The notes under the pieces are model-generated. The model was not told the origin of the DNA, searched no databases, and was given only the letters and a program-made list of their open reading frames with translations. Source: Planctomycetota bacterium (GTDB lineage: Bacteria > Planctomycetota > Planctomycetia > Gemmatales > Gemmataceae). From it: DNA of 46,073 nt. A program made the translations under genes and the position numbers. This document shows, piece after piece, positions 4,239-15,402 of this stretch. The stretch is from the NCBI GenBank assembly GCA_003669555.1, contig QWOS01000007.1, positions 1 to 46,073 on the forward strand. The letters are read 5' to 3'. Position 1 is the stretch's first letter. Every line of letters starts with the position of its first letter.

Positions 4239-5534
4239 TCAACCCAGAATCCGGTCCCAGCGAGCGCGTTGCCAGGCCACCTTTTCTCCAGGTGTCATCT
4301 TTGAAAAATCAGCCTGTTCCACTGGGCGAATCTGCGGACGCGGGGCTGGTTCTGGTGTTTTTGCCGGCGGTTTCGGTGGCGTGCCAGCCTGGGCTTTTGC
4401 AGCGGGTGCCACAATCGGCGTCCTGGTGGGCAGGGCCTGCAGGGGTTTGGGCTGGCCGATCGGGGCCTTCCCGGGCGGCACCGAGATCACTTTGGAACCG
4501 CCATAGCTCATCACGCCGGTCTGAAGCACCATATCGTCTGCAAGGATACGGTTGGGGGTGAGTCCCAGGGCCTGCAATACCCCATGATAGGCTTTTACGG
4601 CCTCCTCGGGCTGGATCTCGCCATCGGCGATCAGCCTCAGGAAGTGGATGAAAGCGAGCTGGTTTTCAGCCTGGTTGATCTTGCGGCCAAAAAGGGCGAC
4701 CCGGCCGCCATACTTTCTGGATTCGGCCAATAATTTGAAGGCATCGTAGGTGGTGCCGGCCGAACCGCCGAGGATTCCCACCACCAGGTGGGGATCGTAG
4801 GCCACCAGTTCTTCCATGGCACGCGGGCCGTGGTAGACGATCTTCAGGAAATCGGGCCGTCCGGAGGAGGTCACACCACCCAGGGTGCGGACGATGGCAT
4901 CGTTGATGAAACCACCCAGATGTTCGGGGGCGACCATACCTTCCACATTAGGGTCGAAAACCTCGAGGAAATGGCGGAAACCTTTTTCTTCGGCCTCGAG
5001 GCGGAAGGAATTGTAGGCCAGCAAGGCCTCACGATCCCGGACCGGGTCGTTGGTGTAGGTGATGCTGTACAAACCCAGATTGGCACCCAGGTGCCTTTCG
5101 GAAGCCTGGCATCTCAGCTTGCCACACTGGATATGGTCGATGGTTGCTGTACGGAATGGGAGGGAGGGCAGGCCGGGAGATTTTCCGCCCCGGTAGACAT
5201 GGATGTCGGTGGTGTCGTTGGCGCGTGCCGCCGGACTGACCCCGCTATCATCAAAGAGCCGCTTCCGAATGGTGAGTTCTTCGGAGGTGCTGGCTGACAT
5301 GAGCATGATGTCAACCAGTCCCTGCCGGACGATCTCCTCGATGATGCGACGGTATTCAGCCAGAGTGCGGTGCCTGGGTTGCCCATCGGGCCAGCGCTCT
5401 CCCGAAAGCCCGGTGGCACCGATCGACAGGGCCATGTCGGCGTCCTTGGCATCCGCCAGGATGAAATCCCGCGCCCCTGAGGGGTCGCTGTGGATGCGTT
5501 TCAGTTTTTCATCCAGCGTTTTTGTTCTGCTCAT
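4239..5534 (-). CDS. TIM-barrel aldolase-like protein at the end of the BMC operon
   Basis: A 431-residue protein that I recognise only at fold level. The core (about residues 20-340) looks like a DeoC/FbaB/LacD-type beta/alpha barrel, with strand-like segments VDIMLMSAS, FLKIVYHG and VVGILGGSAGTTYDAFKLL; the last Gly/Ser-rich loop would suit phosphate binding. The C-terminus is a Pro/Ala-rich linker of roughly 45 residues followed by a short helix (DFSKMTPGEKVAWQRARW), the layout seen for encapsulation peptides. As the last gene of the BMC operon it is likely involved in sugar-phosphate handling. No catalytic lysine can be assigned with confidence, so the enzyme activity is inferred. Confidence 0.55.
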   Translation of the reverse strand: MSRTKTLDEKLKRIHSDPSGARDFILADAKDADMALSIGATGLSGERWPDGQPRHRTLAEYRRIIEEIVRQGLVDIMLMSASTSEELTIRKRLFDDSGVSPAARANDTTDIHVYRGGKSPGLPSLPFRTATIDHIQCGKLRCQASERHLGANLGLYSITYTNDPVRDREALLAYNSFRLEAEEKGFRHFLEVFDPNVEGMVAPEHLGGFINDAIVRTLGGVTSSGRPDFLKIVYHGPRAMEELVAYDPHLVVGILGGSAGTTYDAFKLLAESRKYGGRVALFGRKINQAENQLAFIHFLRLIADGEIQPEEAVKAYHGVLQALGLTPNRILADDMVLQTGVMSYGGSKVISVPPGKAPIGQPKPLQALPTRTPIVAPAAKAQAGTPPKPPAKTPEPAPRPQIRPVEQADFSKMTPGEKVAWQRARWDRILG

Positions 5535-5606: not shown

Positions 5607-5873
5607 TTAAGTTTCGGAGTCGTTATCCAAATCTGCAGTAAAGTAGTCAGAGCCTAGCTTGCGGGCATGCCGTTTGTCCACAAAGAATTTCACGGCCGCT
5701 TCAGCACTTTTGAATGACTTGTCACGGAGTTCTGTTTCGTCGCCCACCGTCATTTCATATTCCACCTGGAAGTGGTTTTCCGAAAGCCTGCAAATGGACA
5801 ACCCGCCAGGCAGGCTCACCTGGTATTCGGCGGGTAGATCGATAACGCGGGCCAGAATCTCCATCTCGTTCAT
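5607..5873 (-). CDS. Small hypothetical protein in the BMC operon
   Basis: An 88-residue acidic protein with no signal peptide or membrane segment and no recognised domain. ATG 5873 follows a strong GGAGGAA ribosome site, and the gene lies between the dehydrogenase and the terminal aldolase-like gene on the same strand. The pattern of alternating short hydrophobic stretches (YQVSLPGGLSICRL, HFQVEYEMTV) suggests a small beta-rich fold. Function unknown. Confidence 0.7.
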   Translation of the reverse strand: MNEMEILARVIDLPAEYQVSLPGGLSICRLSENHFQVEYEMTVGDETELRDKSFKSAEAAVKFFVDKRHARKLGSDYFTADLDNDSET

Positions 5874-5920: not shown

Positions 5921-6961
5921 TTACCGGGAAGGCTGCCAGGTGCTGCGGGGGATAACCCGCTGACCCTCGGCTGGCCTGGTGACCGGCGCTGCCGGCGTGG
6001 CTGATGGTGCCGACGACCTACCCGATGCCAGACGGGTCCGCACCATGTCAAGCGTTTCTTTCAGCACCCGGGCGGAATTATGCAGAGCCACCTGCTCGCG
6101 TGGGGCAAGGGATACCTCCACCTGGGCCATGGCGCCACCAGCGCCCAACACGGTGGGGACGCTCAGACAGATATCGTGCAAGCCATACAGGCCTTGCTGC
6201 AGGGTGCTCACGGGCAAAACCTTGCGACTATCGAGAAGGATTGATTCCACTACCTCGCGGATGGACACTCCCACCGCGAACCCCGAGCCGCCTTTCAGCT
6301 TGATCATGGTGGCACCGGCGGTCTTGGTTTCTTCAAAGACCTCCTTTTCCATCTGTGCGTTGTAGCCCGGCCATTGGGCCAAGGGCATGCCGGCTACTGT
6401 CGCACTCGACCAGATGGGTACCATGGAATCGCCATGTTCTCCCAGCAATAAAGCGCGCACCTGGGTTGCCGGAACCTTCAGGCGGCGGGCCAGGTGGCTA
6501 TTCAGGCGTGCAGTGTCGAGCTGTGTGCCCAAGCCAATCACATGGCGCCAATCGAGCCCCGATCGCTCCACTGCCAAATGGGTCAGGATGTCGACAGGAT
6601 TGCTGACCACAACCAGCGTGGCACCGGGCTTCCAGCCGGCCTGGCGGAGTTTGGCCAGTAAGTCAAGAAAAAGGTCGGTATTGCGATTGATGAGGTCGAG
6701 TCTGGATTCTTCCGGCTTGCGGCGCAGGCCAGCGGTCACCACCACCACATCGCTGTCAGGGATCTGTTCCTGAATGGGACCGGACACCACCCGTTGGTCG
6801 GCCACCAGGCTCGTCCCCTGTAAAATATCAAGCGCCACACCCTGAGCTACCTGCTCGTTGGCGTCAACAATGGCAATATCACTGGCCACCCGGCCCAGGT
6901 GCAGGGCATAGGCCGCCATGCTGCCCACCAAACCACCCCCGCCAACCACGCTCACCTTCAT
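5921..6961 (-). CDS. Lactate/malate dehydrogenase family oxidoreductase (BMC-associated)
   Basis: NAD-dependent 2-hydroxyacid dehydrogenase fold, 346 residues. The N-terminal Rossmann motif is VVGGGGLVG, followed by the Arg/Asn motif SRLDLINRN, the substrate-binding SNPVDILTHLA segment and the catalytic His in LLGEHGDSMVPIWS. The residues after about 310 are a Pro/Ala-rich tail absent from ordinary LDH/MDH. In PVM BMC loci a gene of this family accompanies the aldolase and aldehyde dehydrogenase and probably regenerates NAD by reducing lactaldehyde or a related carbonyl. The substrate is inferred from context, not from residues. Confidence 0.85.
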   Translation of the reverse strand: MKVSVVGGGGLVGSMAAYALHLGRVASDIAIVDANEQVAQGVALDILQGTSLVADQRVVSGPIQEQIPDSDVVVVTAGLRRKPEESRLDLINRNTDLFLDLLAKLRQAGWKPGATLVVVSNPVDILTHLAVERSGLDWRHVIGLGTQLDTARLNSHLARRLKVPATQVRALLLGEHGDSMVPIWSSATVAGMPLAQWPGYNAQMEKEVFEETKTAGATMIKLKGGSGFAVGVSIREVVESILLDSRKVLPVSTLQQGLYGLHDICLSVPTVLGAGGAMAQVEVSLAPREQVALHNSARVLKETLDMVRTRLASGRSSAPSATPAAPVTRPAEGQRVIPRSTWQPSR

Positions 6962-7019: not shown

Positions 7020-7325
7020 TCACCTGGCCGGTTTGGTCTCGGCGACCTTCTGGATCTCGTTGACCTGCCTGGCCACGGCAGTGGCATTCCGCTGCCGGGC
7101 TTTCATCTGGAAGCGGAAAATACCAACCCGCACCAGCACACTAATGACCAGCATCACCCAGGCGCATCCAAGCACGATCCGGATTGGCAGGCTGTAATAA
7201 TCCCAGACACCCCGGCTCAAGCCCATGAAAAGCATCACCAGAGTGGCGATGACACCCGCAGCCAGAATGCCACCCAGAACCAGGGTCATGACGAAGCCGG
7301 CTTTATCCTTGCGGTAATTGAACAT
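7020..7325 (-). CDS. Small two-TM membrane protein in the BMC operon
   Basis: About 101 residues from ATG 7325 (MFNYRKDK), which has a GAGGCAGG ribosome site. An upstream in-frame start at 7367 lacks one. Two hydrophobic segments are clear: about residues 12-34 (FVMTLVLGGILAAGVIATLVM) and 48-68 (IVLGCAWVMLVISVLVRVGIF), followed by a basic, probably cytoplasmic tail. No domain recognised. It lies between the aldolase and dehydrogenase genes on the same strand. A membrane protein in a BMC operon might link the shell or its substrates to the membrane, but nothing in the sequence proves that. Confidence 0.7.
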   Translation of the reverse strand: MFNYRKDKAGFVMTLVLGGILAAGVIATLVMLFMGLSRGVWDYYSLPIRIVLGCAWVMLVISVLVRVGIFRFQMKARQRNATAVARQVNEIQKVAETKPAR

Positions 7326-7437
7326 GTCCTGCCTCGTTTGACAATTGACCCGGGCGGGGGCCGTCATCAGAATCCACCCGCGCTGTCTGCTGATTTTTCA
7401 ACCCAGCATCAAATATCGGTTGCAATGAGTAGCTGGA

Positions 7438-8325
7438 TCAAGCCGACTGCAGGTTACGCATCACCTGGTCAGTGATGGTTCGCACCAGAACATCGAAACC
7501 AGGTTCGTCCAGGCTACCCAAACCTCCGGAGCTCGCCAGATCGTCCGGGCCAATACCGGTGGCAGAATCGTTGCGGAAGGCATACTGCCGGGGCTGGAAT
7601 TTCGAGAATTTCTCATCGAAGCTTGATTCACCGCACATGGGGGATTCGGGGTAGTTGAATCGCACATCGTCATATCCGAGTTTTTTCTTCAGGGCGAGCA
7701 GTTCGCGGGTCTGCTGCTCGGTGAAGTAATTCACCCGGCCGAGTTGGCGTGCGAGGATGAGGATACGGCAGTAAGAATCGATGATTTCCGTATTGAAGTA
7801 GGCATTTTCCAGGTCCGGCCCAAAAGTGATCGTGCCGTGGTTGGCCAGCAGGATGGTATTGCAATCCTTGGCATAGGGCAGCACTGTATCCGCGAATGAC
7901 TGGCCGCCCGGTGTTTCGTAAACTGCAATCGGCACCTCACCCAAAAACACCTCAACCTCGGGGAGCACGCATTTGGGAATGGGTTCGTGCGCCACCGCGA
8001 AGGCTGTGGCGTGGGGTGGGTGGCAATGAACCACCGCATTGATGTCCGGGCGCTGATTGTAGATGGAAAGATGCAGCAGCACCTCGCTGGTCCGTTTGCG
8101 TTTACCGGCGAGCTGGTTGCCCTTGGTGTCAACCCGGCAAATGTCCTCAGGCTTCATGTAGCCTTTGGAGATCATGGTCGGTGTGCAGAGGAACTCGCGT
8201 TCATTCAGGCGAATGGTGATATTGCCATCGTTCGCGGCTGCGAAACCTTTGGCGTACAACCTTCTGCCAATTTCGCAGATCAGTTCTTTGAGTTCGTATT
8301 CGCTCTTGTTGCCATGTCCAGCCAT
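7438..8325 (-). CDS. Class II aldolase, L-fuculose/L-rhamnulose-1-phosphate aldolase type, with C-terminal encapsulation peptide
   Basis: Zinc-dependent class II aldolase/adducin-family protein, 295 residues from ATG 8325, behind AAGGAGG. Hallmarks are NDGNITIR near residue 35, the zinc-binding HCHPPHATAF, and a third His in LLANHGTITFG. It would cleave fuculose- or rhamnulose-1-phosphate to DHAP and lactaldehyde, the entry reaction of the PVM microcompartment. The catalytic domain is followed by a Ser/Gly/Asp linker and a terminal amphipathic helix (FDVLVRTITDQVMRNL), which matches an encapsulation peptide. Which of the two sugar phosphates is used cannot be told. Confidence 0.9.
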   Translation of the reverse strand: MAGHGNKSEYELKELICEIGRRLYAKGFAAANDGNITIRLNEREFLCTPTMISKGYMKPEDICRVDTKGNQLAGKRKRTSEVLLHLSIYNQRPDINAVVHCHPPHATAFAVAHEPIPKCVLPEVEVFLGEVPIAVYETPGGQSFADTVLPYAKDCNTILLANHGTITFGPDLENAYFNTEIIDSYCRILILARQLGRVNYFTEQQTRELLALKKKLGYDDVRFNYPESPMCGESSFDEKFSKFQPRQYAFRNDSATGIGPDDLASSGGLGSLDEPGFDVLVRTITDQVMRNLQSA

Positions 8326-8375
8326 CGTCAGGCCTCCTTGAAAGCATACTTCGGGTAAAAAAAAATAAAAAACCA

Positions 8376-8669
8376 TCACCCATCCAGACTGTCGATCAAT
8401 AAACCAGCATAAGCATCCACCGGTTTTTTCAGCGGGATGTAAGGCATTGGGGCCTCGCCCCCTTCGCTGAAAGCGATAATCTGCCCCACTCCGGCTCCCA
8501 CTCCATCAGCCACCACCAGATCTTCACCAGAGGCTTCCAGGTGCTCGAGGCCATTCGCGGCTTCGATGGCAGCCAGATCACACGGACCAATTACCAGCCA
8601 GCGAATCCCCACCAGCTCCGGAACCACACGGCTGAGCGTCACAGTTCCCAGCACCTTGCCAACGCGCAT
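8376..8669 (-). CDS. BMC-P shell vertex protein (EutN/CcmL family)
   Basis: 97 residues, full length for the pentamer-forming EutN/CcmL family that caps microcompartment vertices. It begins MRVGKVLGTV, the family's first strand, and contains the conserved VVADGVGAGVGQIIAF turn. A C-terminal extension of about 15 residues (KPVDAYAGLLIDSL) follows the core and may face the lumen. It is one of three BMC-P genes in the operon, as expected for PVM loci. The start ATG at 8669 sits 4 bases after the preceding stop. Confidence 0.93.
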   Translation of the reverse strand: MRVGKVLGTVTLSRVVPELVGIRWLVIGPCDLAAIEAANGLEHLEASGEDLVVADGVGAGVGQIIAFSEGGEAPMPYIPLKKPVDAYAGLLIDSLDG

Positions 8670-8673
8670 CGGT

Positions 8674-9288
8674 TCAGCCTCCCAGCCCGGCCACGAGAAG
8701 CACCATGTGCCGCACCTCGAATAATGTCCGTCCAGGCATTTCCACCGCCAAAACCCGAGGCCGCACCGAAGTCATTACCCGCGTCGCCTGTGCCACGGTG
8801 CTGACCGAAGCGGCGGGCACGCCCCAGACGAGCATCGCCACGCTTGCCACCTGTTCGGGTAACGGGCCAAAATGCACCAGCTTGCGTTCTGCCCGCGCAT
8901 GCAGCCACTCGCCCCAGCCGGCGGATTTAAGTTCCCAAGGCCCGCAATCAAGTTCAATCCCGGTGCTGGCCATTCTCCTGGCCACTTCGCCTTTTGCCTG
9001 TTCAACCACTTCGTATCGAACCTGACCTGCTACCAGCAGACCACAACCCTCTGCCTGGCCAGAATTCATGGGGCTGGACACGGCGCTTACCGGGTTCAGC
9101 ACGGATCTGGCGGCTGGTTCCGGATTCTCGCGTACCAGGGGAATTCCAGCACTGGCCAACATTTCCAGCACCAGGGGCGAAACCAGGGTTGCCGGACTCA
9201 CCACCACTTGATCGATACCCCCAAGCCGCCTGGGCAGGTGCCCGGTGGCCAGCAGACTTCCACGGTGTAGCCATCGCCCGGCACTCAC
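8674..9288 (-). CDS. BMC-associated protein of unknown function
   Basis: 204 residues starting at a GTG that overlaps the stop of the upstream BMC-P gene (GTGA). No family recognised. An N-terminal stretch, VVVSPATLVSPLVLEMLASAGIPLV, has a strand-loop-helix look. The C-terminal half has a strongly hydrophobic pattern (VASVAMLVWGVPAASVSTV, VLLVAGLGG) with no clear signal peptide. Being translationally coupled between two shell vertex genes, it is probably a shell-assembly or lumen component, but this is inference from position only. Confidence 0.7.
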   Translation of the reverse strand: MSAGRWLHRGSLLATGHLPRRLGGIDQVVVSPATLVSPLVLEMLASAGIPLVRENPEPAARSVLNPVSAVSSPMNSGQAEGCGLLVAGQVRYEVVEQAKGEVARRMASTGIELDCGPWELKSAGWGEWLHARAERKLVHFGPLPEQVASVAMLVWGVPAASVSTVAQATRVMTSVRPRVLAVEMPGRTLFEVRHMVLLVAGLGG

Positions 9289-9542
9289 TCGTCCACTACC
9301 CCCACTGTCAGCCAGCGAACTGGCGAATCCTTGGCGCCCACCAACTCGCGGGCACCCTTGCCGTCGCTGGAGATCAGCACTCGCATCCCGACACCGGCCC
9401 CCAGGTTGTCAACCACTAGAACCGGTTCACCATCCGGGCCGCCGGAAGCGTCGTAAGCCTGCACAAGCAGAAGTTTCACGCCCTGGAAGCTGCGGTGTTT
9501 CATGGTTGAGATGGCGCGGCCCACCACTTTGCCGATCAGCAT
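9285..9542 (-). CDS. BMC-P shell vertex protein (EutN/CcmL family), second copy
   Basis: About 85 residues beginning MLIGKVVGRAIST, the canonical EutN/CcmL N-terminus, with the conserved VVDNLGAGVGMRVLI turn and C-terminal VRWLTVGVVD. Start uncertain: an in-frame TTG at 9584 has an AGGA site and would add 14 residues, but the family begins at the methionine chosen here (GGAG nine bases upstream). It follows the aldehyde dehydrogenase directly and overlaps the next gene by four bases. Confidence 0.9.
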   Translation of the reverse strand: MLIGKVVGRAISTMKHRSFQGVKLLLVQAYDASGGPDGEPVLVVDNLGAGVGMRVLISSDGKGARELVGAKDSPVRWLTVGVVDE

Positions 9543-9591
9543 GCTTGTCCACTCCATCGGGGGTTGCGCCAGTTCCTGACGCAACTGCTTC

Positions 9592-11109
9592 CTAAATCAC
9601 CCGCATTGAACCCACAGTGCTCGATCTGCGCTTGCGACAGAAGGTCAGGGGGGTGGTAACACCCTCGCCCGTGGGTGTGGCGATACTGAAGCTGGCATAC
9701 CCTTCGCCACCCGCGCCCAAACCGGCCACAGAGGGACCGTTTTGCACGAAGAGTGTGGTCCCCATGCGGCGGCCCATCCGGGTGATGGTGTCGAGGTTGC
9801 GGGAATGGATAACTCCGGTGTGTCCATATCCGTGCTCATGGATCACGGCCATGTCGATGGCATGGTCCACGCAGCGAGCCCTGACGAACGGCACGAAAGG
9901 CATCATCTGCTCGTGCGAGACAAAGGGGTTGGATTCATCGGTTTCCGCAAAAAGCAGGGGGGTGGAAGCTGGGACATCCAGGCCCGCATGACGGGCCAAC
10001 ACGGCAGCATCCTGGCCGATAAGGTCTTTGTTGACCATCAGTTTGCCGTTTTCACCCGTTTTGAAAGCCACCGAGCACAGTCTGTCGACCTGGGACTTGT
10101 CCAGTCGCACCGCCCCATGACGCACCATCCATTCGCAAAGCTCGTCGAAGATATCATTGGTAGCAAAAACCTCTTTTTCGCCGATGCAAAGAAGATTGTT
10201 GTCGTAGGAGGCGCCAGCTATTATCCCCGCGGCGGCGCGCGACAGGTCGGCCGTGCCATCCACCACCACCGGTGGGTTGCCGGGGCCAGCCACCACCGCC
10301 CGTTTGGGGCTGCGGAGGGCGGCACGGGCCAGGGCTGGCCCGCCTGTGACGCATAAAAGTTTCACATCACGGTGATCAAATATCGCCTGGGCGCTTTCCA
10401 GGGTGGGGGTCTCGATAATGGTCAGCAGGTCGCTGATGCCAATGGCCTCCTTGAAAGCCCGGTTGAAAAGCCGGACTCCTTTGGCCGCTATGCGGGCCCC
10501 GGACGGGTGCGCGTTGAACACCACCGTGTTACCGCCAGCCAGCATGTTGATGGCGTTACAGGCCAGAGTGGGCAACGAATGGGTGACAGGGGTGATGGCG
10601 CCAATGACCCCGAAAGGCGCGTATTCCTCCAGGGCGATGCCGTCCTGGCCGCTGAATGCATCGGTCTTCAGCCATTCCACCCCAGGGATGCGATCGGCGA
10701 CAATACGCAGCTTGTCAATTTTATGATCAAGCTTGCCGATCCGGGTCTCCTCAAACTCCTCGCGACCCAGCGTTTCGGCTTGGTCACGGCAGATTGCGCG
10801 GATCCGGTCGATCACTTTTTTGCGCTCGGGGATGCCCACTTTGGAGAATTCCACCAGAGCCCGTGAGGCGGCGGCGACAGCCTCGTCGGCGGTGGCGTAC
10901 ACGCCATCACCTTTCTGCCCGGATACCGGGCGCGCCTGGATTGGGGCGACAGTCGTGGCCGGGGTGGATAATGCCGATGGACGGCCCACCTGGATCTGGC
11001 GCAGCACCTGCTCCACCACGCCGCGGATCATCTGGTCGGTGGGAAGAGTTTTGAGGGCGGACATCGTTGCGGGTTCCCGTTGCTTGGTTGTCGAGGAAAT
11101 ATAACCCAT
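9592..11109 (-). CDS. CoA-acylating aldehyde dehydrogenase (PduP/EutE type) with N-terminal encapsulation peptide
   Basis: Signature core enzyme of the BMC, 505 residues. It would oxidise an aldehyde (lactaldehyde or propionaldehyde) to the acyl-CoA with NAD. The catalytic Cys is in NNLLCIGEKEVF, and the ALDH nucleotide-binding region is visible around AFGVIGAITPVTHSLPTLACN. Residues about 24-40 (TDQMIRGVVEQVLRQI) form an amphipathic helix followed by a Pro/Ala/Thr-rich linker, a typical encapsulation peptide. ATG 11109 has an AGGATAA ribosome site; the in-frame ATG at 11064 (MSALKT) would put the peptide nearer the N-terminus and remains possible. Confidence 0.93.
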   Translation of the reverse strand: MGYISSTTKQREPATMSALKTLPTDQMIRGVVEQVLRQIQVGRPSALSTPATTVAPIQARPVSGQKGDGVYATADEAVAAASRALVEFSKVGIPERKKVIDRIRAICRDQAETLGREEFEETRIGKLDHKIDKLRIVADRIPGVEWLKTDAFSGQDGIALEEYAPFGVIGAITPVTHSLPTLACNAINMLAGGNTVVFNAHPSGARIAAKGVRLFNRAFKEAIGISDLLTIIETPTLESAQAIFDHRDVKLLCVTGGPALARAALRSPKRAVVAGPGNPPVVVDGTADLSRAAAGIIAGASYDNNLLCIGEKEVFATNDIFDELCEWMVRHGAVRLDKSQVDRLCSVAFKTGENGKLMVNKDLIGQDAAVLARHAGLDVPASTPLLFAETDESNPFVSHEQMMPFVPFVRARCVDHAIDMAVIHEHGYGHTGVIHSRNLDTITRMGRRMGTTLFVQNGPSVAGLGAGGEGYASFSIATPTGEGVTTPLTFCRKRRSSTVGSMRVI

Positions 11110-11171: not shown

Positions 11172-11492
11172 TCAGCCGCGATCATTGCGGGCATCGAAGA
11201 CCGTGTTGTCACCGACCTGCACCGTATCGACGATGCCGATAATGGCAGTGTCAATCGGCAGCTTCTCGGTTTGCGGGGTGAGGCGGGCGCTGGACCCTTG
11301 CACAATCAGCACAATCTGTTCGGATCCAGCCCCGACTGAGTCAACCGCCACAAAACTGCGACCTGTGCCAACCAGTCTGGAGCGGTCCAGGGGATCCACC
11401 CTGAGTGGTTCCACAATCAGGAGTTTTTGCCCCGTCATGGATAGGGCTTTTTGGGTGGCAACGATGCTTCCTGTCACGCGGGCTAGAAACAT
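11172..11492 (-). CDS. BMC-P shell vertex protein (EutN/CcmL family), third copy
   Basis: 106 residues beginning MFLARVTGSIVAT, with the family features FVAVDSVGAGSEQIVLIVQGSSAR and a C-terminal strand IIGIVDTV. It has a GAGGGGTA ribosome site ahead of ATG 11492. The GSSAR loop is characteristic of EutN/CcmL pentamers. It lies between the selenoprotein gene and the aldehyde dehydrogenase. Three distinct vertex proteins suggest functional division among vertices, as in other PVM loci. Confidence 0.93.
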   Translation of the reverse strand: MFLARVTGSIVATQKALSMTGQKLLIVEPLRVDPLDRSRLVGTGRSFVAVDSVGAGSEQIVLIVQGSSARLTPQTEKLPIDTAIIGIVDTVQVGDNTVFDARNDRG

Positions 11493-11544: not shown

Positions 11545-11775
11545 TCACTTCAGAAGGGCCTCAAGTTTTTCAACAATTTCCTTGTTGGCAGGGAACCGGT
11601 GTTCCTTGTCTTTGGAGAAGAGAAGCTGGCCATCCGCCTCCACATCAAAAATGCCGCCCGAACCGGTTTTGGTTTCCACCTCGACCTGGGGCAACTTGCC
11701 TCGCACTGCGGCCGCCAAACTGGCGGCGAAGTTGCGATACCCTCAAGAGGTGCAATAAGTGATCAACAGTTTCAT
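11545..11775 (-). CDS. SelW/Rdx-family selenoprotein with in-frame UGA (Sec) at codon 11
   Basis: Reading through one TGA (11743-11745) gives a 76-residue thioredoxin-like protein that starts MKLLITYCTS-Sec-GYR and ends EKLEALLK. The C-x-x-U motif followed by GY, right after the first beta strand, is the active site of SelW/Rdx proteins. The downstream GGIFDVEADGQLLFSKDKEHRFP matches the family's G-x-F-[DE]-V ... hxG ... h[FH]SK pattern, and the length is that of bacterial SelW. ATG 11775 has a textbook GGAGGAA site 7-8 bases upstream. A SECIS-like hairpin follows the UGA. The gene sits between ackA and a BMC-P gene on the operon strand. Family role: thiol/selenol redox. Its BMC role is inferred. 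The only Cys is the C8 of the motif. Confidence 0.88.
11701..11737 (-). promoter_or_regulatory. Bacterial SECIS-like hairpin downstream of the Sec UGA
   Basis: On the minus strand, UCGCA (11737-11733) pairs with UGCGA (11705-11701). After a symmetrical 5x5 internal loop, GCCGCC (11727-11722) pairs perfectly with GGCGGC (11716-11711) around the loop AGUUU. The apical loop begins 21 bases after the UGA and has G as its second base. Both fit the known bacterial SECIS rules: a hairpin just 3' of UGA, a loop 16-37 bases away, and a G among the first two loop bases, for SelB binding. Confidence 0.75.
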
Positions 11776-11822: not shown

Positions 11823-13001
11823 TCAGGGACCGGCCAGCAGGGCACTTGCCTGCCGGGCCACCACGATCTCTTCGTTGGTGGGCAGGATCCATATCTGGGC
11901 GCGGCTGCCAGTCTTGTGGATGGCCACTTCACCTTTGGCGCCGGTATTGGCAGCCAAATCGAGTTCAATCCCCATCCAGCCAAGGGCGCCACATACTTTC
12001 TCGCGCAGGAGAGCAGAGTTTTCACCGATGCCGCCGGTGAAGAAGATGCCGTCGAGGCCACCCAGGAGGGCGATGTAGCCCCCAAGATACATCTGGATGG
12101 AATGAAAAAAGACATCCAGGGCGGCTATTGCCCGGGTATCACCCGTATGGGCGGCCTTTTCAATATCTCGCATGTCCCGAAGGCCACAGAGGCCTTCAAG
12201 ACCTGAGCGGTTTGCCAGTTCGTCGAGCAGTTGCCCGAGGGAAAGCCCCGTGGCCTCAAGCAAGACTGGCAGGGCGAAAACATCAAAATCGCCCACCCGG
12301 TTGTTATGTGGCAGGCCGCTCTGGGGACTCATTCCCAAGGTGCAGGCAATTGATTTTCCAGCCCTGATGGCGCAAAGGGAATTGGACCCACCCAGGTGGC
12401 ACGAGATGATCCGGGCCTCGGGATTATCCAGCAATTCTGCGGCCCGGCCGGCAATGAAGCGATGGCTGGCCCCGTGGAAACCCCATTTGCGTACCCCGTG
12501 CTTCTCGGCCCACTCGTACGGGATGGCGTACAGGCTGTTGCCCGGCGGAATGGTCTGATGGAAACCTGTTTCAAAAGCGGCCACCAGCGGAATGGCGGGG
12601 AACTCCCTGGCCAGCAGGCGCATCGCTGCCACATAGGGCGGGTTATGCGCTGGTGCTACTGCGGAGTAAGCTTCCATGGCAGCAAGGACAGCCGGAGTGA
12701 CCCTTTGCGCGCCAGTGACCCCGCGGGCATGAACCGCCTTGAAGCCGATGGCACCCAGATCACTGGTATTTTTCAGGCAACCATGACGGGACAGATGTTC
12801 CAGACAGGCGCGCACCGCCACAGCGTGATCCGGAGCCTGCAGGCTACCCTCCTCACGGACTGCGCCGACCTCGATGAACCAGGGGGATTCCTTTCCGCCG
12901 ATCCGTTCAAAACCACCTTTTGCCAGCAACAGCTCGTTCGCCATATCGAACAGGCGATACTTGAAGCTGGTGCTGCCCAGATTGGCGACAAGAACCTTCA
13001 T
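11823..13001 (-). CDS. ackA: Acetate kinase family protein (BMC-associated)
   Basis: ASKHA-fold acyl kinase, 392 residues from ATG 13001 (MKVLVANLGSTSFKYRLF). Family motifs are the N-terminal N-x-GS-[ST]-S-x-K-like strand, AHNPP, AAFETGFHQTIP, GFHGASHRFI and a C-terminal GGIGEN. It would transfer phosphate from acetyl- or lactyl-phosphate to ADP, the last step after aldehyde dehydrogenase and PduL. The motif that is usually GTRSGDIDP reads HNNRVGDFDV here, so the protein is divergent, perhaps tuned to a larger acyl phosphate such as lactyl-phosphate. The region before 13001 is open but has no family counterpart. Confidence 0.88.
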   Translation of the reverse strand: MKVLVANLGSTSFKYRLFDMANELLLAKGGFERIGGKESPWFIEVGAVREEGSLQAPDHAVAVRACLEHLSRHGCLKNTSDLGAIGFKAVHARGVTGAQRVTPAVLAAMEAYSAVAPAHNPPYVAAMRLLAREFPAIPLVAAFETGFHQTIPPGNSLYAIPYEWAEKHGVRKWGFHGASHRFIAGRAAELLDNPEARIISCHLGGSNSLCAIRAGKSIACTLGMSPQSGLPHNNRVGDFDVFALPVLLEATGLSLGQLLDELANRSGLEGLCGLRDMRDIEKAAHTGDTRAIAALDVFFHSIQMYLGGYIALLGGLDGIFFTGGIGENSALLREKVCGALGWMGIELDLAANTGAKGEVAIHKTGSRAQIWILPTNEEIVVARQASALLAGP

Positions 13002-13086
13002 GGTTGAGTATCCGCATCCGTGAAAGGATAAAAAGAAATCTTCGGGCGACCGGGCGGGCGTCTGCCCGCCCGGCATGCCAGACGAA

Positions 13087-13371
13087 TCAGCGACCGAGGA
13101 AAGCCTCCAGCACCGCGGGTTCAGGGCGGGGGATGACATGAGCGCTGATCAGCTCACCATGTTCGCTGGCGGCCTTGCCACCCGCATCGACTGCTGCCCT
13201 GACACTGCCCACATCGCCACGCACGAAGGTGACAATAAAAGCGTTGCCGATCTGCACCTGGCCGGCATAGGACACATTCGCTGCCTTGCACATGGCGTCA
13301 GTGGCAGCGATTGCGGAAATAAGTCCCTTGGTTTCAACTATTCCCAAGGCTTCAGACTTGATGGCGGACAT
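13087..13371 (-). CDS. BMC-H hexameric shell protein
   Basis: 94 residues, a single BMC (PF00936-type) domain: EALGIVETKGLISAIAATDAMCKAANV, then VQIGNAFIVTFVRGDVGSVRAAVDAG and the C-terminal strand SAHVIPRPEPAV. It forms the facets of the microcompartment as hexamers. ATG 13371 has an AGGAG ribosome site. Together with the neighbouring paralogue it makes up the two BMC-H genes expected in a PVM locus. The residues after HVIPRP form a short C-terminal helix. Confidence 0.96.
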   Translation of the reverse strand: MSAIKSEALGIVETKGLISAIAATDAMCKAANVSYAGQVQIGNAFIVTFVRGDVGSVRAAVDAGGKAASEHGELISAHVIPRPEPAVLEAFLGR

Positions 13372-13408: not shown

Positions 13409-13708
13409 TCAGGCGGCTGGCTTGCCGGGTTTCGGCAGCACATCTTTCAGGTCACCATGAGGGCGGGGAATTACCTGAATCCCGACCACTTCGCCAACGC
13501 GGGAGGCGGCTGCCGCACCCGCATCAACCGCGGCTTTCACCGCTGCGACATCGCCCGCCACCATTGCGGTGACCAGGCCACTGCCAATTTTCTGCCAACC
13601 CAGCAGGGTGACATTGGCGGACTTCAACATCGCGTCACAGGCCTCGACCAGCGCCGTCAGCCCCTTGGTTTCGATCATCCCCAGCGCTTCCAGGTTACCC
13701 GCCGACAT
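13409..13708 (-). CDS. BMC-H hexameric shell protein, second copy
   Basis: 99 residues, one BMC domain with [51 protein letters not shown] and VIPRPHGDL. It is clearly a paralogue of the neighbouring BMC-H, differing most in the pore-region strand and in a Lys/Pro-rich C-terminal tail (LPKPGKPAA). ATG 13708 sits behind a near-perfect GGAGGTGATT ribosome site, the best in the operon, consistent with high expression of the main shell protein. Confidence 0.96.
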
Positions 13709-13816: not shown

Positions 13817-14512
13817 TCAGCGAAACAGCTCGACCCGTTTCGCCTTCGACAGGTTCACCGCGTTGCCTTCATCGGTGTCGATGTGCACCTCGAGCTTTGC
13901 TCCGGCACTCACCCTCACCAGAACCTCCTCCAGAACAGCGGGACAATCGCTTGCCACTCGCAGATTGAGGAAGTCCCCATCCTTGACTCCATAGTGATCG
14001 GCCTCGCGCTGGCACATATGCACATGGCGCTGATGGCGGATTACTCCACGCTCGAGATGGATCATGCCTTTGGGGCCCACCAGATAGGCTCCCGGTGAAT
14101 CACGGTGATCGCCGCTCTTGCGAACGGGCACATCGAGGCCCATCTGGATCGAGTCGGTGAAGGCAAGCTCCACCTGGCTATGGTCCCGGCAGGGGCCAAG
14201 GATTCGCAAATTGTTGATCACACGCTGACGCGGCCCAACAAAGGTCACCGTTTCTTCCGCGGCAAAAAAACCGTCCTGATACAGCATCTTGAAGGGCGTC
14301 AGTTTATGCCCCGTGCCAAACAGCCTCTCAAGATCCGACTGGGTCACATGGGCGTGACGAGCCGAAACATTCACCAGCAGCCGAGGCTGGGCGGGGGCTG
14401 CTGGCTGAGTGGGCTCACCCGGCTGACTGCAGCCGGGCCGCAATACATTACGGAGGGCCCCGCGCACCAGTCGTTCTATTTCCAGTCGATCCAGACCTGT
14501 CGTGGCAATCAT
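13817..14512 (-). CDS. pduL: PduL-type phosphate propanoyl/acyltransferase with N-terminal encapsulation peptide
   Basis: 231 residues from ATG 14512 (MIATTGLDRLE), overlapping the regulator stop (ATGA). PduL converts acyl-CoA to acyl-phosphate inside the lumen. The two zinc-binding His motifs are SARHAHVT and RHVHMCQREA, with the two beta-barrel repeats around them. Residues about 8-24 (DRLEIERLVRGALRNVL) form an amphipathic helix followed by a Pro/Gln/Ala-rich linker, the standard encapsulation peptide of BMC PduL. It links the aldehyde dehydrogenase to the kinase and recycles CoA in the lumen. Confidence 0.94.
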   Translation of the reverse strand: MIATTGLDRLEIERLVRGALRNVLRPGCSQPGEPTQPAAPAQPRLLVNVSARHAHVTQSDLERLFGTGHKLTPFKMLYQDGFFAAEETVTFVGPRQRVINNLRILGPCRDHSQVELAFTDSIQMGLDVPVRKSGDHRDSPGAYLVGPKGMIHLERGVIRHQRHVHMCQREADHYGVKDGDFLNLRVASDCPAVLEEVLVRVSAGAKLEVHIDTDEGNAVNLSKAKRVELFR

Positions 14513-15294
14513 GTTGAATACCCCCCACGCCGCGCCGCCACATGCAGGCGAACGCCAGCAACCTCCAGCCATTTCCGTTCCAGATCAGTCATCCGATCGT
14601 CGACCACCAGGTCGTCGATGTCATCCAGGCCGCACAGCCAGGTCAGGGCCCGCCGACCCAGCTTGGTGTGATCGGCCACCACCACCACCCGTTCGGCGCG
14701 ACGCATCATGGCCCGCTCGGTTTCCACCAGCAGCAGGTTGCTGTTGAAAAGCCCCTCACTGGTGATGCCACTCACGGAAAGTATCGCCACATCGGCATGT
14801 AAATCTTCCACCATGCGGATGGTGTTGCTGCCAAGGGCCACTCCGGTGCGCGGGTAAACATACCCGCCGAGCACCACCAGGTCGCTGGCCGGGTTGGCGG
14901 CGAACATCTGGGCAATGGGGAGGCTATTGGTCACAACCTGAACCCGGCGGCCGCTGGCAAGGATATTGCTCGCCACCTCGAGGGTGGTGGTGCCGCCATC
15001 GAGCAGTACTGTGTCACCTTCACGAATCAGTGTTGCGGCCAGTTCGCCAATCTGAATCTTCTCTTCCAACTGGCGGCCGGTCCGTTCCTCGAGCGGCGGG
15101 AGAGGCGCACCATCCTGGTTCCATATGGCGCCCCCGTGGGTGCGACGCAGATAACCCATCTGGTGCAGATGCTCCAGGTCTCGGCGGATGGTGGATTCGG
15201 AAACATCGATGGCGCGTGCCAGATCCTGCAGACTGGCAAAGCCATGGGTGCTGACGAGACTCCTGAGTTTTTGCCGGCGTTCCTCAACCAGCAT
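14509..15294 (-). CDS. DeoR-family transcriptional regulator of the BMC operon
   Basis: 261 residues from ATG 15294 (MLVEERRQKLRSLV), behind GGGAGG. The N-terminal winged helix-turn-helix is FASLQDLARAIDVSESTIRRDLEHL followed by GYLRRTHGGA. The C-terminal sensor domain of the ISOCOT/sugar-phosphate type shows DTVLLDGGTTTLEVA and VVVADHTKLG. DeoR regulators usually respond to a phosphorylated sugar and repress catabolic operons. As the first gene it is likely autoregulated, and palindromes lie at the promoter just upstream. The open frame up to 15396 lacks family similarity and is not taken as coding. Confidence 0.93.
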   Translation of the reverse strand: MLVEERRQKLRSLVSTHGFASLQDLARAIDVSESTIRRDLEHLHQMGYLRRTHGGAIWNQDGAPLPPLEERTGRQLEEKIQIGELAATLIREGDTVLLDGGTTTLEVASNILASGRRVQVVTNSLPIAQMFAANPASDLVVLGGYVYPRTGVALGSNTIRMVEDLHADVAILSVSGITSEGLFNSNLLLVETERAMMRRAERVVVVADHTKLGRRALTWLCGLDDIDDLVVDDRMTDLERKWLEVAGVRLHVAARRGGYST

Positions 15295-15402
15295 GAAAAC
15301 CTCCCGTCGGCCTCCCGGCGCAATCATCATTCCGTGCTGTCCGCCGGAAGAGGTGGATGAAGGTCTGGTTGATATCTGCCAGATTCTTCCACACATGCTG
15401 CC

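Follow-up and report, generated by a model that had tools for sequence, protein, structure and literature searches.

Selenocysteine (Sec) forms of SelW-like proteins are described as common in bacteria (PMC1088965, PMC1794560). A redox role has been proposed for the family on the basis of its CxxU motif, and an interaction of SelW with glutathione has been observed (PMC1088965). Among bacterial microcompartments (BMCs), the PVM locus type, named for Planctomycetes and Verrucomicrobia, has been linked to the aerobic degradation of fucose and rhamnose by way of lactaldehyde (PMC4207490). Selenoproteins and microcompartments have until now been catalogued separately. The main texts of two BMC catalogues contain neither "selen" nor "Rdx" (PMC4207490, PMC8217296), and a literature search, mostly at the level of titles and listings, brought up no publication that places a selenoprotein in a BMC operon, in line with the preliminary description of this DNA, which knew of no such locus. 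Here, we analyze a selW-like gene within a planctomycete BMC locus. The window is the whole stretch of 46,073 nucleotides (GCA_003669555.1, contig QWOS01000007.1) in which this locus lies.

A selW-like gene predicted to be read through an in-frame TGA

The selW-like gene occupies 11775..11545 on the minus strand, starting with the ATG at 11775 and closing with a terminal TGA that ends at 11545. It comprises 76 codons plus the stop and opens with MKLLITYCTS-TGA-GYRNF. The sole interruption is the TGA at codon 11 (11745-11743, minus strand), which as the predicted Sec codon would complete the active site CTSUGY (CxxU). A Shine-Dalgarno sequence, GGAGGAA (11788-11782, minus strand), lies six bases upstream of the ATG. 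The gene begins 47 nt past the stop of ackA and ends 52 nt before the start of a BMC-P gene. The start, the ribosome binding site, the 76 codons with one TGA and the position between ackA and BMC-P had all been proposed in the preliminary description, and each was recovered here. Its further claim that the gene is hidden holds in part. The piece after the UGA is present in databases as short proteins of 53-60 aa, some of those from relatives (P0003, P0007, P0010) named SelT/SelW/SelH and the window's own (P0016) without a name. Gene callers cut selW at the UGA, so ORF-based catalogues would miss the gene or list a fragment.

The assignment to the SelW/Rdx family, also made earlier from the CxxU-GY motif, was borne out by profile searches and by the predicted fold. 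The read-through protein scored 68.7 bits against Pfam Rdx (PF10262, cut-off 22.6) and 66.2 against TIGR02174 (SelT/SelW/SelH, cut-off 34.2), and it did not reach the cut-off of 88 of the narrower family NF041051 (75.3). An AlphaFold model built from 18 rows had a pLDDT of 95.2 and a pTM of 0.82. With this predicted model as query, the best PDB matches from Foldseek were SelW-related (2fa8, 2obk, 2ojl, 2oka, 2p0g, 3dex), with TM scores of 0.87-0.93 against 2fa8, 2obk and 2ojl; the best PDB match by sequence was 2ljk (C17orf37/MIEN1). In the model, C8-T-S-U11 follows strand 2-8 of a thioredoxin-like fold. The Rdx domain fills almost all of the 76 residues, and no encapsulation extension was seen.

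Homologues with a predicted Sec and with a Cys at the active site were both found. Fourteen other orthologues at the locus carry the TGA, and one Cys version of the BMC-type protein, P0002 (79 aa, CTSCGY), lies on a 565-base ENA contig without context. Five further database SelW homologues (P0023, P0038, P0044, P0050, P0052) show Trp at the Sec position, probably because the TGA was called with a Trp-reading code.

A predicted bacterial SECIS stem-loop spans 11703..11735 on the minus strand, with the loop G at 11720 and the upper stem and loop, CCGCC-AGUUU-GGCGG, at 11726-11712. The bacterial SECIS model, as outlined in PMC13188914, has a 3-9 nt loop on a 4-16 bp stem, an MFE of -7.5 kcal/mol or lower, a G within the first two loop positions and 16-37 nt from the UGA to the loop, and all 15 selW sequences fall within every one of these bounds. 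Each hairpin has a five-pair stem plus an A-U pair and a G as the first or second base of the loop (15/15), with a U-G pair in one of them. The UGA-to-loop distance is 21-22 nt and the UGA is separated from the last C of the 5' arm by 20 nt, again in all 15, and the MFE of codons 11-25 ranges from -13.5 to -20.0. Ser19 is AGT and Leu20 is TTG in every sequence, both codons building the hairpin with its AGUUU loop; in the locus genes, AGT accounts for 10% of Ser codons and TTG for 19% of Leu codons.

Two hairpin pairs show double changes. Columns 22 and 32 pair as G-C in nine sequences and as A-U in six. On the tree of the loci, the A-U form is found in genera g15 and g23 and is missing from g1, which is sister to g23, a pattern that we read as requiring two or more double changes. 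The pair 12-42 takes three forms among the 15 sequences. Compared with random synonymous recodings, the folding z was below zero in 15/15 (-1.25 to -2.98; the sequences are related and not independent), and for 45 control stretches taken from these genes z was negative in some and positive in others (-2.57 to 2.11). In only 10 of the 15 sequences did under 5% of the recodings fold as stably, which we count against our best explanation.

Purifying selection acts on both sides of the TGA, as shown by codon comparisons in six pairs that gave pN/pS values of 0.13-0.29 for the whole gene and 0.14-0.37 for the part 3' of the TGA.

The microcompartment locus and the spread of selW within the family

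The locus genes share the minus strand with selW. In order, they are a DeoR-family regulator (14509..15396; best matches under their equivalog cut-offs), a PduL-type phosphotransacylase (pduL, 13817..14572), a BMC-H shell protein (13409..13708) similar to the next gene, an EutM-like BMC-H shell protein (13087..13371), and the acetate kinase gene ackA (ORF 11823..13139, the true start probably internal), which adjoins selW upstream. Directly downstream of selW come a BMC-P shell vertex protein of the EutN/CcmL family (11172..11492), a BMC aldehyde dehydrogenase of the CoA-acylating type (9592..11109; PRK15398, over cut-off), a second BMC-P (9285..9584), a 204-aa protein without an NCBIfam family match (8674..9288) and a third BMC-P (8376..8669). 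The order continues with a class II aldolase (7438..8379; PF00596), the PVM signature enzyme, a small conserved ORF (7020..7367), a lactate/malate dehydrogenase family protein (5921..6961), an 88-aa ORF without a Pfam match (5607..5873) and a conserved 431-aa protein with weak aldolase-like matches only (4239..5534).

The PVM set is present, with the PF00596 aldolase beside shell genes, the aldehyde dehydrogenase, ackA, DeoR and the lactate/malate dehydrogenase. Judged by this gene content, the locus is a PVM-type microcompartment, and the profile matches agree with the planctomycete microcompartment operon first proposed. The host organism would be expected to use fucose or rhamnose. TGA is the normal stop of 12 of the 15 locus ORFs, so this codon is not generally reassigned.

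The 88-aa ORF occurs in all 12 selW-bearing loci that reach its place and in none of the 31 other loci compared, of which 24 extend across this position; this distribution points to a gain in the same clade as selW. Profile matches to the small conserved ORF were obtained in 13/15 selW-bearing and 6/31 other loci. The 204-aa protein evolves fast, with 54-55% identity in two congeners and 32-44% in the eight other selW-bearing loci where it was found.

A survey of 95 genomes of the family recovered the locus-type SelW in 15, all at 126 bits or more, the next match in the family scoring 54.8. All 15 copies, from genera g1, g15, g20, g23 and g29, have a single internal TGA, at codon 11. This TGA, recurring in orthologues from separate genomes, is hard to read as the sequencing error that the preliminary description had allowed for. 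In 15/15 loci the next gene downstream of selW is this BMC-P gene, with 10-59 nt between the selW stop and BMC-P. selW follows ackA in all 14 loci whose contig reaches that far, the remaining one (L049) beginning 8 bases before selW. A Shine-Dalgarno sequence precedes the gene in 14 loci and the fifteenth is at a contig end. Given the constant TGA, the constant BMC-P neighbor, the pN/pS values and the retained hairpin, selW is, on this comparative evidence, neither a sequencing error nor a pseudogene. We regard 11775..11545 as almost certainly a Sec-encoding gene of the microcompartment operon.

BMC genomes were counted by the aldehyde dehydrogenase at E 1e-60 or better (39/95), to which G003 adds one copy cut by a contig end, giving 40. 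selW is present in 15 of these 40 genomes and the other 25 do without it, a point that we also count against our best explanation. No Rdx gene was present in the 13 loci fetched from those 25 genomes, nor in any of the 37 selW-less loci compared. ackA is followed by BMC-P in 30 of these 37; two have a BMC-H in between, three have ackA elsewhere and two stop short of this position. The 15 selW loci group together, with an SH-aLRT of 99, in a concatenated tree (quick method, one model) of 45 loci. This single clade, together with the lack of Rdx genes in the other BMC loci examined, is most simply read as one gain of selW at the BMC locus, kept since, with losses elsewhere possible.

At the level of the phylum, the aldehyde dehydrogenase was found at 1e-100 in 47 of 392 genomes drawn, the window's own assembly (G000) included. 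A SelW search of a draw of equal size (392) gave a best match besides G000 of 78.8 bits. We also looked for other BMCs that might have acquired a SelW independently, and rejected this idea: among 87 SelW places outside G000, the 20 neighborhoods looked at, mostly those heading the list, held no BMC genes, and their sole match to the window's locus genes was one weak DeoR. Five genomes of the phylum draw with both a SelW match and the BMC dehydrogenase (G375, G416, G424, G453, G170) carry the two on different contigs or at least about 248 kb apart.

Selenocysteine machinery in the genome and its relatives

The preliminary description would have been undermined by a genome without Sec machinery, and on this point the window's own assembly (3.43 Mb, 59.7% complete) gives a divided answer. 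No selA, selB or tRNA-Sec exceeded the cut-off in this metagenome-assembled genome (MAG), which counts against our best explanation. selD is present and itself carries a TGA in frame, within the motif CAGUAGK (L053 9229-10500, contig C61), and a second SelW-like gene with a TGA lies 120 bases upstream of the selD match. Among the relatives, selA and selB occur in all three congeners (G001, G002, G003), and the 93%-complete G001 has selA, selB, selC and selD, its tRNA-Sec bearing the anticodon tca. tRNA-Sec was not found in G002 (56% complete) or G003 (89%), where a 50-bit candidate proved to be a tRNA-Ser; these two absences likewise count against our best explanation. Across the eight selW-bearing genomes searched, selD was found in 8, selA and selB in 7 and tRNA-Sec in 5. 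The best reading is that the genes lacking in G000 fall in sequence absent from its assembly; selA and selB lie within a few kb of each other on contig C194 of G001, so two missing places would suffice.

Four other relatives that are 75-92% complete (G005, G014, G033, G042) have no selB over the cut-off, through gaps in their assemblies or for another reason, and carry a TGA-bearing Rdx gene of the other type; this too is counted against our best explanation. In one genus, tRNA-Sec adjoins the end of the BMC locus (L052 16571-16668 in G017, 278 nt past the last gene match, and L074 664-761 in G102); the stretch examined of a third genome, G103 (L077, L099), held none.

Proposed role, alternatives and known systems

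SelW is likely a selenol/thiol reductase that keeps cysteine enzymes of the predicted lactaldehyde pathway reduced; for this explanation as a whole, we estimate a probability of roughly 55%. SelB, Sec-tRNA and the hairpin would insert Sec at codon 11, and selW would be translated along with the operon during sugar use. The selenol would then attack an oxidized cysteine or a mixed disulfide of an organelle enzyme and Cys8 would resolve the intermediate, so that Cys8 and Sec11 alternate between a selenenylsulfide and a selenolthiol. A cellular thiol system would re-reduce SelW. The site of action could be inside the shell, or the cytosol, on newly made cargo. Among the locus proteins, candidate substrates are cysteines that have become oxidized or caught in mixed disulfides, for example the nucleophilic Cys of the acylating aldehyde dehydrogenase. 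Enzymes of this family use a cysteine nucleophile, the aldehyde dehydrogenase of these loci has conserved cysteines, and we infer that in a pathway handling aldehydes aerobically it would be the natural client. The part of the explanation that assigns SelW to the organelle enzymes as their reductase is tentative.

The cysteine content of the locus proteins did not reveal such a target, which leaves as a conjecture the proposal of the preliminary description that the protein protects the aldehyde enzymes or controls shell or enzyme cysteines. Among 14 locus proteins, compared as ORFs not trimmed to their start codons and between groups that differ by ancestry, no cysteine column was present in all selW-bearing loci and absent from the selW-less ones; the 88-aa ORF was left out, having no row on the selW-less side. 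The nearest columns were in AckA (14/14 selW-bearing versus 18/27 selW-less), the aldehyde dehydrogenase (14/15 versus 15/29) and BMC-H (11/14 versus 10/26). In 12 of the 14 comparable proteins, the mean number of cysteines was also lower in the selW-bearing loci. With no unique column and fewer cysteines, no target is visible, which speaks against the reductase reading.

These results, together with the missing lumen-targeting tail, leave a fair share to the main rival, in which a general cytosolic selenoprotein came to lie in the operon by chance, is simply transcribed along with it and has no substrate particular to the BMC. The single origin of the locus-borne gene, the absence of an encapsulation extension and of a co-evolving cysteine, and the commonness of TGA-bearing SelW-like genes elsewhere in planctomycetes, with no BMC genes in the 20 neighborhoods examined, would all suit such a passenger. 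We nevertheless consider it unlikely, given that the same place has been kept in 15/15 genomes of five genera with frame and hairpin intact, and that a further SelW-like gene is found on a different contig in 12 of the 15, so the locus copy is not simply the only one in the cell. It is improbable, going beyond the reductase reading, that the fucose/rhamnose organelle of this clade is selenium-dependent as such, with a lumenal or shell-bound SelW as a dedicated component running a private selenol redox cycle for the aldehyde enzymes, and with the UGA, upstream of the vertex and aldehyde dehydrogenase genes, making the amount of organelle depend on selenium supply.

A regulatory role of the UGA, tying organelle assembly to selenium supply, appears very improbable. 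Without selenium, ribosomes would stop at codon 11 and polarity would lower translation of the downstream BMC-P and aldehyde dehydrogenase, and the position of selW upstream of both on one strand, with its gap of 10-59 nt, would permit this. Yet the downstream genes have their own starts, and the conserved SelW protein sequence indicates that the product itself is selected. Hardly credible is a TGA acting as a true stop, with the gene a remnant or encoding a 10-residue peptide only. The selA, selB and tRNA-Sec that did not pass the cut-off in the MAG would fit it; purifying selection past a TGA retained in 15/15, the SECIS-like hairpin, the Sec machinery of the congeners and two more in-frame-TGA genes in the same genome (the SelW paralogue and selD) argue against it.

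The case offers a redox protein gained, within a single clade, by the operon of an aldehyde organelle. It opens to experiment the question of how a shell's acylating aldehyde dehydrogenases and further cysteine enzymes stay reduced, and the 15 selW-bearing loci with their close selW-less relatives constitute a natural experiment.

Redox-carrying microcompartments of the glycyl-radical types resemble the window's locus in encoding a redox helper with the organelle. To our knowledge, they have no selenoprotein, and we know of no relationship between SelW and their flavin or iron-sulfur proteins. Bacterial SelW-like/Rdx selenoproteins (PF10262, TIGR02174) share the CxxU place, fold and size of the window's SelW, which differs from them in being encoded within a microcompartment operon. 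Its motif is CTSUGYR, versus CxxUNY in the second SelW of the same genome and in 15 of 20 other planctomycete copies examined. With the PVM microcompartment as presented in PMC4207490 and PMC8217296, the locus has in common the aldolase, aldehyde dehydrogenase, PduL, ackA, lactate/malate dehydrogenase and DeoR, and likewise more BMC-P (three) than BMC-H (two) genes. It differs from the other PVM loci examined in carrying selW and the clade-specific 88-aa ORF. SelW selenoproteins and PVM organelles are each already known; their combination in one locus is, as far as we found, new.
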